From Bacteroides sp. An322 (GTDB lineage Bacteria; Bacteroidota; Bacteroidia; Bacteroidales; Bacteroidaceae), in the NCBI RefSeq assembly GCF_002161765.1, contig NZ_NFIN01000002.1:1-64000 (forward strand): a stretch of DNA of 64,000 nt, in the 5' to 3' direction. Shown here one piece after another: positions 3,534 to 53,888 of the stretch. The translations under genes were made by a program, and so were the position numbers. The notes beneath the pieces were generated by a model, which had not been told where the DNA came from, did not search any database, and was given only the letters and a program-made list of their open reading frames with translations. Within the stretch, counting starts at the first letter, position 1. Each line of letters begins with the position of its first letter.

Positions 3534-4196
3534 ATGAGAAAGAAAGAATTATATCAGCAGGTAATTGCCTATTTTGAGCAGGCGATGCCCGTGGCAGAGA
3601 CCGAACTCCATTACGACGACCCGTTCCAACTGCTCGTAGCGGTTATCCTCAGTGCGCAATGCACCGACAAGCGCGTCAATCTGATTACCCCGCCCTTGTT
3701 CCGTGATTATCCCACGCCCGAAGCGATGGCTTCCGCCACGCCCGAAGTGATTTACGAATACATTCGCAGCGTGAGCTATCCCAACAACAAGGCACGCCAC
3801 CTTGTAGGCGCGGCGCAGATGCTAGTGCGCGATTACGGAGGGCAGGTGCCCGATACGTTGGAAGAACTGGTGAAGCTCCCCGGTGTAGGACGGAAGACAG
3901 CAAACGTAGTCCAAAGCGTGGTGTTCCATAAAGCCACAATGGCGGTCGACACTCACGTGTTCCGCGTAAGCCACCGCATCGGGCTCGTGCCCCCTTCCTG
4001 TACTACCCCGCTCGCCACCGAGCGTGAGCTGGTGAAGAATATTCCCGAACAGCTGATACCGAAAGCCCACCATTGGCTCATCCTTCACGGTCGTTACGTT
4101 TGCACGGCGCGCAATCCCAAATGTACCGAATGCGGGTTGAACGGCATCTGCACCTTCTCCGGTGCCATTTCGTCCATCGGGTTCCCAGTCAAATAA
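3534..4196 (+). CDS. nth: Endonuclease III
   Basis: Base-excision repair DNA glycosylase/AP lyase for oxidised pyrimidines. The 220-aa protein shows the helix-hairpin-helix 'LPGVGRKTANV' (about residues 115-125, with the catalytic Lys), the downstream 'VDTHVFRV' with the catalytic Asp, and the C-terminal iron-sulfur ligands C-x6-C-x2-C-x5-C in 'CTARNPKCTECGLNGIC'. It begins 30 bp after corA. Length is typical. Confidence 0.96.
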   Translation: MRKKELYQQVIAYFEQAMPVAETELHYDDPFQLLVAVILSAQCTDKRVNLITPPLFRDYPTPEAMASATPEVIYEYIRSVSYPNNKARHLVGAAQMLVRDYGGQVPDTLEELVKLPGVGRKTANVVQSVVFHKATMAVDTHVFRVSHRIGLVPPSCTTPLATERELVKNIPEQLIPKAHHWLILHGRYVCTARNPKCTECGLNGICTFSGAISSIGFPVK

Positions 4197-4640: not shown

Positions 4641-4878
4641 TAAATTCGATTTTCATCATTTGGCAATGGAGAACTTACTAAAAATTATTATATATATATT
4701 TATATATATAATATATTATATGTAATATTTTTTCATCCGTCAATTTTGCATTTTTCATAAACTGTAATCTGTAAGGCGTAAGATTTCTATAAAAAGTGCA
4801 TATAAATACATGAACTGACTCGGATATTTGCGTATGCCTTCGAAAATAATTGCGCCGCGCAAACCGATGCGTCAGGGT

Positions 4879-4910
4879 ATTGCATAATTCAAAACTTTTT
4901 CGTACTTTTG
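4879..4910 (+). promoter_or_regulatory. Promoter upstream of the hairpin cluster
   Basis: -33-like ATTG at 4879-4882, 20-bp spacer, and a perfect TAnnTTTG box TACTTTTG at 4903-4910. The next annotated protein gene (nrdJ) has its own promoter 600 bp further on, so this one would transcribe mainly 4917 to about 5390. In element copy B the equivalent box is degraded to TACCTTCG. Confidence 0.55.
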
Positions 4911-5010
4911 TAAGGTAAACCAAAAACTAATGCTATGACACTATCCGACCAATTCCTGACTCTTATCGCTTTTCCGTTTTGCTTTGTAATCCAGTTAGTT
5001 ACAATAGATA

Positions 5011-5339
5011 AGGTAGTTTCAAACTACCTCATCTCCGGAGATGATATAATTTCAAATTATCCCATCGGATGGAGGGGTGTAAGTTTGGCTAACACCCCTT
5101 CGGGAGATAACCTCGTTCCTTGTCACCCTGGCTTGCAATCTAGCGTAAACGAGCTGCGGATTTGCAATCATGAGTGGTCGGAAGATTTGATAAAGGCGGT
5201 GAAAACCGTCCAACAATATGTAACCGTAGGTTCGCTCGCTTACCAGCGGTTACGTATCATTGAGCCTCTTCAAGGCTCTGTTTATGATAAAGCGTATCCG
5301 ACAAAATCTTTTCAACCACTCATGATTGCAAATCCGGCG
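5011..5339 (+). ncRNA. Candidate structured RNA / dense hairpin cluster
   Basis: Head-to-tail hairpins behind a promoter. They are a 19-nt palindrome (5011-5029), CATCTCCGGAGATG (5030-5043), ATAATTTCAAATTAT (5046-5060), CCATCGGATGG (5062-5072) and GGGGTGT...ACACCCC (5074-5098), then CTCGTT (5112-5117) with AACGAG (5148-5153). After these comes a perfect 21-bp stem (5158-5178 with 5315-5335), which encloses three arms. Arm one is GGCGGT-GAAA-ACCGTC (5195-5210, a GNRA tetraloop). Arm two is GTAACCG...CGGTTAC (5220-5253). Arm three is TATCAT, GAGCCT, loop, AGGCTC, ATGATA (5255-5289). It could be a novel ncRNA, or a REP/BIME-like palindrome mosaic. A 152-codon reading frame (4935-5393) overlaps but looks like a by-product. 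Confidence 0.5.
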
Positions 5340-5511
5340 AATAAAATCATCTGTGTAAATCTGTGTTTCCTCTGTGTCTTCTGTGTGCCATAATATAAGC
5401 TATGTTAAAAGCAGGGTTTTCAAAAAAGAAAACTTTCGGAATGTTTGGATATTAATAAGGTTTTGTATACCAGTGTGTTGTGATTTTGTTTTGGAAAACT
5501 TTCTTTTTTGT

Positions 5512-5542
5512 TTTGTAGATTGAAAAAACATCTTTAGCTTTG
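5512..5542 (+). promoter_or_regulatory. Promoter of nrdJ
   Basis: TTTG at 5512-5515 and TAGCTTTG at 5535-5542 with a 19-bp spacer, leaving a 5' leader of about 45 nt before the GTG start of nrdJ. No cobalamin-riboswitch-sized leader is present. Confidence 0.7.
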
Positions 5543-5592: not shown

Positions 5593-8139
5593 GTGGAAAA
5601 ACAAACGTACAGTTACGACGAAGCGTATGATGCCTCGTTGGATTATTTTAAAGGAGACGAGCTTGCTGCCCGCGTATGGGTGAACAAGTATGCGGTGAAA
5701 GATTCTTTCGGGCATATCTATGAAAAGTCTCCGGAGGACATGCACTGGCGCATTGCAAACGAAGTGGCTCGCATCGAAGCCAAGTATCCGAACGGATTGA
5801 GCGCACAGGAGTTGTTCGGCCTGTTCGACCATTTCAAGTACATCATTCCGCAGGGGAGTCCGATGACGGGCATCGGGAATGACTATCAGATTGCTTCTTT
5901 GTCGAATTGTTTCGTTATCGGGCTGGATGGGGAAGCCGATTCGTATGGTGCCATTATCCGTATCGACGAAGAGCAGGTGCAGCTGATGAAACGCCGGGGC
6001 GGGGTAGGGCACGACCTTTCCCACATCCGTCCGAAAGGTTCGCCGGTAAAGAACTCGGCGTTGACTTCTACGGGTTTGGTTCCGTTTATGGAGCGTTACT
6101 CCAACTCTACCCGTGAGGTGGCTCAAGACGGACGCCGCGGGGCGTTGATGATGACGGTGTCTATCAAACATCCCGACTCGGAAGCGTTCATCGACGCCAA
6201 GATGACCGAGGGGAAGGTGACCGGAGCCAATGTGTCGGTGAAGATAGACGATGAGTTTATGCGGGCAGCCGTAGAGAACCGTCCGTATATGCAGCAGTTC
6301 CCGATTGACTCGGCAGACCCGAAAGTGAAGAAGGAAATCGACGCTTCGGCTTTGTGGAAGAAGATTGTACACAACGCGTGGAAGTCGGCAGAGCCGGGCG
6401 TGCTGTTCTGGGATACGATTATCCACGAGTCGGTGCCCGATTGTTATGCCGATTTGGGTTTCCGCACCGTATCTACCAACCCGTGTGGCGAGATTCCTTT
6501 GTGTCCGTACGATTCGTGCCGCTTGCTTGCCATCAACCTGTATTCATACGTGGTCAATCCGTTTACGCCCGAAGCGTATTTCGACTTCGACTTGTTCAAG
6601 AAGCATGTCGGGCTTGCCCAGCGGATTATGGACGACATCATCGACCTCGAACTGGAGAAGATTGAAAAAATCATGGAGAAGATTGATTCCGACCCCGAAA
6701 GCGAGGAAGTGAAAGGGACGGAACGCCACTTGTGGGAAAAGATTTACCGCAAGTCGGGCATGGGACGCCGCACCGGTGTGGGCATCACCGCCGAGGGTGA
6801 CATGTTAGCTGCCATGGGATTGCGTTACGGGACAGAAGAAGCCACCGAGTTTGCTGAACAGGTACAGAAAACCATTGCGTTGGAAGCCTACCGTTCTTCG
6901 GTCAATATGGCGAAAGAACGCGGCGCATTCGAGATATATGATACGGAACGCGAAAAGAACAATCCGTTCGTGAGCCGCATCCGTGAAGCCGACCCGGAAC
7001 TTTACGAGGAGATGAAGAAATACGGACGCCGCAACATCGCGTGTCTGACTATTGCTCCTACGGGTACGACCAGCCTGATGACACAGACCACGTCGGGCAT
7101 CGAGCCGGTATTTATGCCGGTCTATAAACGCCGCCGCAAGGTGAACCCGAATGACGAGAATGTGCGTATCGACTTCGTGGACGAGACGGGCGACGCTTTC
7201 GAAGAATACTTGGTGTTCCACCATAAGTTCCTGACGTGGATGAAAATGAACGGTTACGACCCCGATAAGCATTATACGCAAGAAGAGATTGACGAATTAG
7301 TGGCGAAATCTCCTTATTATAAAGCAACTTCGAACGATGTAGACTGGCTGATGAAGGTGAAGATGCAAGGACGCATCCAGAAGTGGGTAGACCATTCGAT
7401 TAGCGTGACCATTAACCTGCCGAACAACGTGGATGAGGATTTGGTGAACCGCCTGTATGTAGAGGCATGGCGTTCGGGCTGCAAGGGATGTACGGTGTAC
7501 CGCGACGGTTCGCGTGCCGGCGTGCTGCTCTCCGCCAAGAAGAAAGACGATAAGAAAGAAGAAGAGGAATGCCATTGCAAGCCGCCTCAAGTAACCGAAG
7601 TACGTCCCCGCGTGTTGGAAGCCGACGTGGTGCGTTTCCAGAACAACAAAGACAAGTGGGTGGCATTTGTCGGTTTGCTTGATGGGTATCCGTATGAAAT
7701 CTTTACCGGTTTGCAGGATGACGATGAAGGCATCGTGCTTCCGAAGTCGGTCACTCGTGGGCGCATCATCAAGAACTATGACGAGAACGGTGTGAAGCGT
7801 TACGATTTCCAGTTTGAGAACAAACGTGGCTATAAGATGACGGTAGAAGGCTTGTCCGAGCGTTTCAATAAAGAATATTGGAATTATGCGAAGCTGATAT
7901 CGGGCGTGTTGCGTTACCGGATGCCGATTGAGCAGGTAATCAAGTTGGTCAATTCGCTCCAGCTGGATAGTGAGAATATCAATACGTGGAAGAATGGTGT
8001 GTCGCGCGCGTTGAAGAAATATGTATTGGACGGTACCGAAGCCAAAGGCGTGAAATGTCCGAATTGCGGCAATGAGACGTTGGTTTATCAGGAAGGTTGC
8101 CTGATATGCAAGACGTGCGGCTCTTCGCGTTGCGGATAA
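5593..8139 (+). CDS. nrdJ: Adenosylcobalamin-dependent (class II) ribonucleotide reductase
   Basis: Makes deoxyribonucleotides using adenosylcobalamin instead of a separate radical subunit, so it works with or without oxygen. The 848-aa protein has 'LSNCFVIG' (about residue 105), the NPCGE active-site motif at 296-300 and APTGT at 488-492 in the finger-loop region. A C-terminal zinc-ribbon/redox tail 'CPNCG ... CLICKTCG' ends at 'SSRCG'. I see no N-terminal ATP cone. The start is GTG at 5593, set by the promoter at 5512-5542. Implies dependence on B12 supply. folB follows after an AACGCAG inverted repeat. Confidence 0.95.
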   Translation: MEKQTYSYDEAYDASLDYFKGDELAARVWVNKYAVKDSFGHIYEKSPEDMHWRIANEVARIEAKYPNGLSAQELFGLFDHFKYIIPQGSPMTGIGNDYQIASLSNCFVIGLDGEADSYGAIIRIDEEQVQLMKRRGGVGHDLSHIRPKGSPVKNSALTSTGLVPFMERYSNSTREVAQDGRRGALMMTVSIKHPDSEAFIDAKMTEGKVTGANVSVKIDDEFMRAAVENRPYMQQFPIDSADPKVKKEIDASALWKKIVHNAWKSAEPGVLFWDTIIHESVPDCYADLGFRTVSTNPCGEIPLCPYDSCRLLAINLYSYVVNPFTPEAYFDFDLFKKHVGLAQRIMDDIIDLELEKIEKIMEKIDSDPESEEVKGTERHLWEKIYRKSGMGRRTGVGITAEGDMLAAMGLRYGTEEATEFAEQVQKTIALEAYRSSVNMAKERGAFEIYDTEREKNNPFVSRIREADPELYEEMKKYGRRNIACLTIAPTGTTSLMTQTTSGIEPVFMPVYKRRRKVNPNDENVRIDFVDETGDAFEEYLVFHHKFLTWMKMNGYDPDKHYTQEEIDELVAKSPYYKATSNDVDWLMKVKMQGRIQKWVDHSISVTINLPNNVDEDLVNRLYVEAWRSGCKGCTVYRDGSRAGVLLSAKKKDDKKEEEECHCKPPQVTEVRPRVLEADVVRFQNNKDKWVAFVGLLDGYPYEIFTGLQDDDEGIVLPKSVTRGRIIKNYDENGVKRYDFQFENKRGYKMTVEGLSERFNKEYWNYAKLISGVLRYRMPIEQVIKLVNSLQLDSENINTWKNGVSRALKKYVLDGTEAKGVKCPNCGNETLVYQEGCLICKTCGSSRCG

Positions 8140-40680: not shown

Positions 40681-40686
40681 TTTAGA

Positions 40687-40758
40687 GCGGAAGACGGGAC
40701 TCAAACCCGCGACCCTCAGCTTGGAAGGCTAATGCTCTATCGACTGAGCTACTTCCGC
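40687..40758 (-). tRNA. tRNA-Gly (anticodon TCC), second copy in transcript
   Basis: 72 nt, acceptor GCGGAAG paired with CTTCCGC, D-loop AGCTCAGTCGATAGAGC, anticodon loop CTTCCAA, T-arm GCGGGTTTGAGTCCCGT. CCA is not encoded. Identical to the other copy at 40863-40934. Confidence 0.97.
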
Positions 40759-40766
40759 AAGTTATG

Positions 40767-40849
40767 TGGGCAAGGATGGATTCGAACCACCGAAGGCATA
40801 AGCCAGCAGATTTACAGTCTGCCCCATTTGGCCACTCTGGTACTTGCCC
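40767..40849 (-). tRNA. tRNA-Tyr (anticodon GTA), second copy in transcript
   Basis: 83 nt with a long variable arm (GGCTTATGCC), anticodon stem-loop CAGACTGTAAATCTG, T-arm GGTGGTTCGAATCCATC. Acceptor stem GGGCAAG/CTTGCCC. It differs from the other copy by a compensated pair at the base of the acceptor stem. Confidence 0.97.
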
Positions 40850-40862
40850 TTGAGGAATGAGA

Positions 40863-40934
40863 GCGGAAGACGGGACTCAAACCCGCGACCCTCAGCTTGG
40901 AAGGCTAATGCTCTATCGACTGAGCTACTTCCGC
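40863..40934 (-). tRNA. tRNA-Gly (anticodon TCC), first copy in transcript
   Basis: 72 nt, same sequence as 40687-40758. Forms with the adjacent tRNA-Tyr a unit that is repeated with a 176-bp period. Confidence 0.97.
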
Positions 40935-40942
40935 AAGTTGTG

Positions 40943-41025
40943 TGGGCAAAGATGGATTCGAACCACCGAAGGCGTAAGCCAGCAGATTTACAGTCTGCCC
41001 CATTTGGCCACTCTGGTATTTGCCC
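40943..41025 (-). tRNA. tRNA-Tyr (anticodon GTA), first copy in transcript
   Basis: 83 nt, acceptor stem GGGCAAA/TTTGCCC and variable arm GGCTTACGCC. First gene of the tRNA transcript, starting 10 nt after the predicted transcription start. Confidence 0.97.
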
Positions 41026-53524: not shown

Positions 53525-53862
53525 GGCAATGGATTTGGAACGGGTGAGCGTAAAAATCTGTTAACGAATAGGCGTTTTATTTACTTGTTGGTTCGCAATC
53601 TATTGTATATGTGTAAAATATAGATAAGTGCAAACGACAACTTTTTTCAGTGCCGATATCTATGCTATCAGTGAAGGTGTCTAAGAAAACCGATTTCACC
53701 TAACTGTAATCTGTAATATTGTAATGCTGTAACGGAGAATCTGCATATATATGCATGAATTATTCTGCCTAACTGGATGCGTGAAAGAAAATAGTTGCGC
53801 CGTGCTGCGCAACTATCTGTTTATGGTATTGCATAATTCAAAACTTTTTCGTACCTTCGTAG
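53525..53862 (+). repeat. Modular intergenic element, copy B
   Basis: Blocks matching copy A (4394-4912): 53525-53567, 53700-53716, 53742-53759, 53787-53812 and 53825-53854 (30/30 identical to 4876-4905). The hairpin block is longer here: ATAGTTGCGC and GCGCAACTAT pair over 10 bp around CGTGCT. The promoter box is decayed (TACCTTCG) and points into the 3' end of the Spy-like gene. No protein gene recognised between 53501 and 53888. Confidence 0.65.
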
Positions 53863-53888
53863 GCGTAAAGCAAAGGTTTCAGATTCTG

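Follow-up and report, generated by a model that had tools for sequence, protein, structure and literature searches.

The hairpin cluster located between nth (3534-4196) and nrdJ (5593-8139) in the 64,000-nucleotide stretch of Bacteroides sp. An322 DNA analyzed here (the window) is probably a recent, lineage-specific mosaic of palindromes, placed between the resident promoter P1 and nrdJ, with a tandem array of palindromes on the left and a REP-like palindrome interrupted by a MITE on the right. The anatomy of the cluster, the dispersal of its pieces, an unoccupied site in a relative, and the homology of the array units to a hairpin in phage antirepressor genes were observed directly. An earlier sequence-only reading had favored a structured RNA of unknown class, with a DNA-level mosaic of the REP/BIME kind as the alternative; it is the alternative that turned out to be essentially right, except that there is no REP (Y1) transposase and that the mobile part is an IS4-family element. 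What had been a candidate unknown RNA becomes a readable mosaic, which provides a tested case of IS4-type MITE insertion into palindromes. The suspicion that some of the hairpins are biologically special finds support as well, as those on the left match a hairpin inside phage antirepressor genes whose covariation is strong. Fragments of the cluster recur widely, with 23 matches in all within the window's genome and further ones in Phocaeicola salanitronis; the whole cluster was found in none of the phage and plasmid records searched. It is probably read from P1, and as a whole it appears to have no conserved RNA function.

Promoter P1 (4852-4940, plus strand) consists of a TTG at 4880-4882 and TACTTTTG at 4903-4910; the latter had been proposed as a -7 box, and indeed it fits the Bacteroidota motif TAnnTTTG, with the TTG at the right spacing. 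P1 resides inside a dispersed promoter-bearing repeat of ~90 bp, copies of which were located on contigs C34, C8, C12 (53.8k) and C14 of the window's genome, and also in P. salanitronis and the genomes G067 and G084. This repeat, with its complete Bacteroidota promoter (window 4852-4940 and 53787-53874; contigs C34, C8 and C14), precedes unrelated sequences. The nrdJ gene, whose product was assigned to Pfam Ribonuc_red_lgC, is preceded by a promoter P2 (5513-5542, plus strand; TTG 5513-5515, TAGCTTTG 5535-5542), which is conserved at the orthologous locus of uncultured Bacteroides sp. SI.B2 (L116, apparently genome G084). At L116, P1, the ATGACACTATCCG behind it, and the complete nrdJ leader are preserved with high identity; the locus has no counterpart of 4971-~5305 (about 340 bp), with no array and hardly any MITE, and a single palindrome, CCGCCGGATTGCAAGTCCGGCGG, stands in place of the cluster. 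A gain in the lineage of the window is simpler to assume than a loss in L116, although that locus may once have possessed the cluster. A second case of turnover is provided by the P1 repeat at 53.8 kb of the window, which is followed by almost nothing, and by its counterpart in P. salanitronis (108.1 kb), which has two array units behind it. The gene order of the nrdJ neighborhood also differs between the window (53828) and P. salanitronis (C1:108.1k), and the P1 repeat and palindromes occur at both breakpoint regions.

The right half of the cluster begins with the REP-like palindrome TTGTCACCCTGGCTTGCAATCTAGCGTAA (5120-5148; family TGTCACGCTGGATTTGCAATCCAGCGTAA), matched by loci L044 and L046 in P. 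salanitronis. A second REP-like palindrome is split into a left half, CTGCGGATTTGCAATC (5154-5169), and a right half, GATTGCAAATCCGGCG (5324-5339), the latter aligning with GATTGCAAGTCCGGCG in L116, and it is the probable target of an internally deleted IS4-family MITE (5170-5323, plus strand) recognized by IS ends and aligned copies, with terminal inverted repeats (TIRs) at 5170-5186 (ATGAGTGGTCGGAAGAT) and 5306-5323. The arms 5157-5183 and 5310-5336 are 93% complementary over 27 nt and include a perfect stretch; the perfect 21-bp stem described in the sequence-only reading is present, but has to be reinterpreted as the terminal part of the MITE TIRs together with the two halves of the target palindrome. 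The arm thought to be capped by a GAAA tetraloop exists among the inner hairpins of the MITE (5195-5211), but its loop reads GAA or AAA in related copies and does not represent a conserved GNRA loop, and the pieces assigned to a 6-bp long-range pair (5112-5117 with 5148-5153) are in place but require no special explanation.

The ends GGATTTGCAATC-ATGAGTGGTCGGAAGAT bound both the MITE and three copies of a 1.43-kb IS in P. salanitronis (G016). Pfam placed the IS transposase in DDE_Tnp_1 (3.9e-18), an assignment to DUF4372 having been tried with no match, and its motif YRRRWDIEVFFRFLK displays the YREK spacing Y(2)R(3)E(6)K, a hallmark of the IS4 family (PMC2266710). The IS copy at L199 is flanked by the 11-bp direct repeat GATTTGCAATC and a MITE of genome G020 by GATTTGTAATT, a length within the IS4 range of target site duplications (PMC2266710); both repeats sit at the center of the palindrome CGCCGGATTTGCAATCCGGCG. 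The 11-mers flanking the window MITE are inverted (GATTTGCAATC/GATTGCAAATC) and not direct repeats. Non-coding copies close to full length (about 300 bp) are found in the window's genome (C8) and in G084 (C93, C151), whereas the window copy is missing about 145 bp from its middle and the G020 copy, also deleted, measures about 80 bp. The transposase gene is present in P. salanitronis (G016) and absent from the window's genome; this absence and the inverted 11-mers count against the mosaic reading. Judged by its ends and copies, the MITE would once have been moved by an IS4-family transposase into the center of the REP-like palindrome; ISRm22 offers a precedent for IS4-family insertion at a REP-palindrome axis (PMC1525189).

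The element resembles IS4-family MITEs in its IS-shared TIRs, the lack of a transposase gene, the several copy lengths, and the 11-bp duplication in some copies; it differs in that its interior is a nest of dispersed palindromes and in that the partner IS is missing from the window's genome. With REP/BIME sequences and their targeting IS (ISRm22, PMC1525189) the region shares clustered intergenic palindromes and an IS4-family element at a palindrome axis, whereas its palindromes belong to several unrelated families. A REP/RAYT origin was considered and discarded, as no Y1 transposase (PF01797) could be found in the window's genome, while the control genomes do give matches. Elsewhere in the window's genome (L007 1540-1850; C45:107.8k), units of about 50 bp (GCGAAAGCTCGCCCACGCCGTGGGGACGGAATCCC..), repeated in tandem, directly follow a decayed MITE.

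The left half of the cluster (5007-5118) is an array of palindromes on the plus strand with a strict 33-nt period, the units starting at 5007, 5040, 5073 and 5106. Unit 1 (5007-5033) is the perfect-core palindrome GATAAGGTAGTTTCAAACTACCTCATC, reading DKVVSNYLI; unit 2 (5040-5066), GATGATATAATTTCAAATTATCCCATC, reads DDIISNYPI; unit 3 (5073-5099), AGGGGTGTAAGTTTGGCTAACACCCCT, reads RGVSLANTP and has counterparts at the same place in the arrays of P. salanitronis and G067; unit 4 (5106-5118), GATAACCTCGTTC, is truncated and may be compared with GATAGCCTCGTTTCAAGCGAGGTCATC at 2870.9k of P. salanitronis. A linker palindrome, CATCTCCGGAGATG (5030-5043), pairs the right arm of unit 1 with the left arm of unit 2 in an alternative register. 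Related arrays amount to about 29 sites in 7 loci in P. salanitronis, about 8 in G067, and 3 in the window's genome; a search of G084, G068 and G010 gave none, and one of G061 and G066 marginal single matches only. No exact unit occurs in the named genomes of GTDB r220, a set outside which very near genomes possibly lie. The majority of the arrays begin a short distance behind a promoter of the P1 type and point away from it, with a consistent strand in those inspected. Between paralogous units, 89% of the cells are paired and 45 both-side changes were counted, compared with 18.8 ± 3.0 after shuffling; selection on the hairpin would also produce such covariation, which, like the promoter arrangement, counts against the mosaic reading. 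Outside pairs 8-9, the array units carry no strand signature (G.U 11, A.C 12).

These units were compared with phage sequences by means of a covariance model, R2, which was built from phage Bro-N antirepressor hairpins only (52 training rows, none taken from arrays and one from the Bro-N genes of other Phocaeicola species, not that of the window). Within the 64-kb window R2 made exactly three matches, namely array units 1-3, with nothing else at E up to 1. Unit 1 scored 31.1 bits on the minus and 27.1 bits on the plus strand (E 8e-6 and 1e-4 over 83 kb), unit 2 scored 35.2 bits (E 5.7e-7), and unit 3 scored 17.6 bits (E 0.048 over 83 kb, 0.0014 over 2.5 kb). The model also recovers every one of the related Phocaeicola arrays.

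The hairpin on which R2 is based is a 27-nt palindrome at a single Bro-N codon site, encountered in IMG/VR loci (L282-L361) and in named-phage loci (L372-L392); an IMG/VR scan with a looser motif gave 17 matches, 14 of them within Bro-N reading frames. Named phages with the palindromic site include those of Paenibacillus, Exiguobacterium, Mycobacterium, Streptococcus, Faecalibacterium, Listeria, Bacteroides, Synechococcus, Anoxybacillus and Pseudomonas, and the hairpin phages span Firmicutes, Bacteroidota, Actinomycetota, cyanobacteria and Pseudomonas, at one and the same antirepressor codon site. The palindrome is weak or absent in Staphylococcus StB27, Streptococcus Javan306 and C. difficile phiCDKH02. 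From 80 phage Bro-N genes gathered via peptides outside the palindrome, 62 distinct five-codon segments were obtained; 6.18 of 7 symmetric positions are paired, where a random choice of synonymous codons gives 3.52 (z 20) and a shuffle of codon columns among genes 4.76 (z 15; observed value reached in 0 of 2000 shuffles). Pairing beyond the synonymous-codon expectation implies that the hairpin is constrained at the nucleotide level in the phage genes. The residues follow the palindrome, V/I going with N, L/F with K, and C/S with T; the outermost codons covary (GAT..ATC, AAG..CTT, GAG..CTT, GAC..GTC), and the proline codon is CCC in 40 of 41 cases. In a set of 52 diverse hairpins, changes on both sides occur at 12 of 13 pairs, with a covariation of 0.524 versus 0.184 ± 0.015 shuffled and ≤0.126 slid; for the named-phage rows the best palindrome had been picked by score, hence with a bias to structure, whereas the 62 segments were not so picked. 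The palindrome is kept by matching changes on both arms across very different phages, even where the amino acids change. It is not in Rfam, and it appears to be undescribed in the open-access literature, where no earlier description was found. The antirepressor gene of Pseudomonas phage vB_Pae_CF57a (L391) holds two palindromes 39 nt apart, an in-gene tandem like the intergenic arrays.

The stems of the phage hairpins contain G.U over A.C pairs at 20 to 4, which by itself would suggest action as RNA. At pairs 8-9 the ratio of G.U to A.C is 5 to 40, and the antisense hairpin is more stable than the sense hairpin in 43 of 62 segments, the weakness of the sense form being due to a fixed A.C and a C mismatch, so that the hairpin may act at either the RNA or the DNA level. 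A role as an operator with further copies was tried as well; since most phages are single-copy, it is unlikely (of 28 phage records, 24 have a single copy and two have a pair, while the other two gave no exact match). An antisense copy of the palindrome was sought beside the antirepressor gene, where the gene's own matches were no better than decoys. Antirepressors switch prophages to lytic growth, and among the closest known systems are the C4 antisense RNA (Rfam RF01695) and c4-2 (RF02944), likewise structured RNAs tied to antirepressor control; neither has a match in the window, and no pairing with the coding hairpin was found. An Rfam search of 12 antirepressor loci yielded c4-2 near one only. 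There (L326 856-933), the c4-2 match, at 40.2 bits against a gathering score of 41, lies immediately before the antirepressor gene, and one of its loops, GCTATGTT, is complementary to AACATAGC just ahead of the start codon.

The array units and the Bro-N coding hairpin have in common the 27-nt palindrome of the type GATGA.GT..TTTCAAA..AC..CATC, on the same strand in most array units. In contrast to the coding hairpin, the window units are intergenic, not inside a Bro-N coding sequence, and follow each other in tandem at a 33-nt period behind a promoter. A connection is found in P. salanitronis, in which a Bro-N/ANT antirepressor gene contains a unit identical at 26 of 27 positions to an array unit of the same genome, and a second Bro-N gene (L255 1646-1676) agrees at 30 of 31 bases with the element that opens the intergenic array at 825 kb (L202), at the same protein site. 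On these comparisons we take the arrays to have been derived from, or exchanged with, antirepressor genes; as the hairpin is widespread in phages and the arrays are narrowly distributed, the direction would be from antirepressor to array. Most likely, the array would have originated from a prophage antirepressor sequence and then been multiplied and kept palindromic at the DNA level.

Regarding the role of the host arrays, they are likeliest relics. It is conceivable, though clearly the lesser prospect, that the P1-driven arrays are host elements directed against phages, which would mimic or pair with the hairpin of the phage antirepressor mRNA, or titrate its binder, and so restrain lytic switching; palindromes are their own antisense. 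Such a function would be in line with the several classes of antirepressor hairpin held in the arrays (..NYPI, ..KVI, DGVCLTEGV, GVxxxxTP), with differing arms, with the P1-type promoters and consistent strand, with the strong covariation of the units, and with the position of the arrays next to crcB, rlmN, nrdJ and a cation transporter and not in prophages. On the other hand, the array units have no G.U excess, the arrays turn over rapidly and are lacking where orthologous loci were compared, and viral contigs contain no exact type-1 or type-2 unit. Put more broadly, and with the same reserve, the promoter-driven arrays of many variants in a small group of gut Phocaeicola might serve as a collection of antisense or decoy hairpins by which the lytic switch of infecting phages is dampened. 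If true, the antirepressor-internal element and the host arrays would be parts of phage-host control open to direct testing.

A further proposal holds that arrays and Bro-N genes exchange palindromes, the arrays being stores or by-products of a gene conversion that alters the palindrome and its residues. This is improbable: the near-identity of the two P. salanitronis genes to array elements at the site (26/27 and 30/31) and the open Bro-like reading frame of the array units would agree with it, but it rests on two cases only, and the same covariation is found in phages without arrays.

An even smaller probability attaches to one structured ncRNA of about 350-450 nt transcribed from P1, the interpretation originally preferred. 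The hairpins are present where the stems had been placed, and the region 4990-5345 folds at -138.9 kcal/mol compared with -86.8 ± 5.4 for shuffled sequences (z -9.6; 0 of 100 shuffles as low), so that both promoter and fold speak for it. However, the reverse strand of the cluster region, taken as DNA, gives z -9.7, and the RNA folds of 4911-5345 are equal in sense (-149.1) and antisense (-148.6); because both strands fold alike, the signal reflects DNA palindromy and not a strand-specific RNA. Furthermore, the cluster is composed of separately dispersed repeats, is not conserved as a whole and is missing at the orthologous locus L116, the GAAA loop is not conserved, and there is no Rfam match. 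For the left half of the cluster, a merely accidental resemblance to the antirepressor hairpins, both being simple palindromes, is hardly credible: palindromes with a TTTCAAA core do have few possible forms, but the outer GAT..ATC arms match too, R2 finds nothing else in the 64-kb window reaching E 1, and near-identical copies lie within the two P. salanitronis Bro-N genes. That the 152-aa ORF 4935-5393 encodes a protein can practically be dismissed, as had been judged before, for although its ATG comes soon after P1 and the array units are read in a single frame, it has no Pfam match and the frame is not maintained in the orthologous locus or in other arrays. The Rfam comparison of the window returned tRNAs only, four in number; these lie on the minus strand at 40686-41025 as two identically scoring pairs in tandem, apparently the outcome of a recent duplication.
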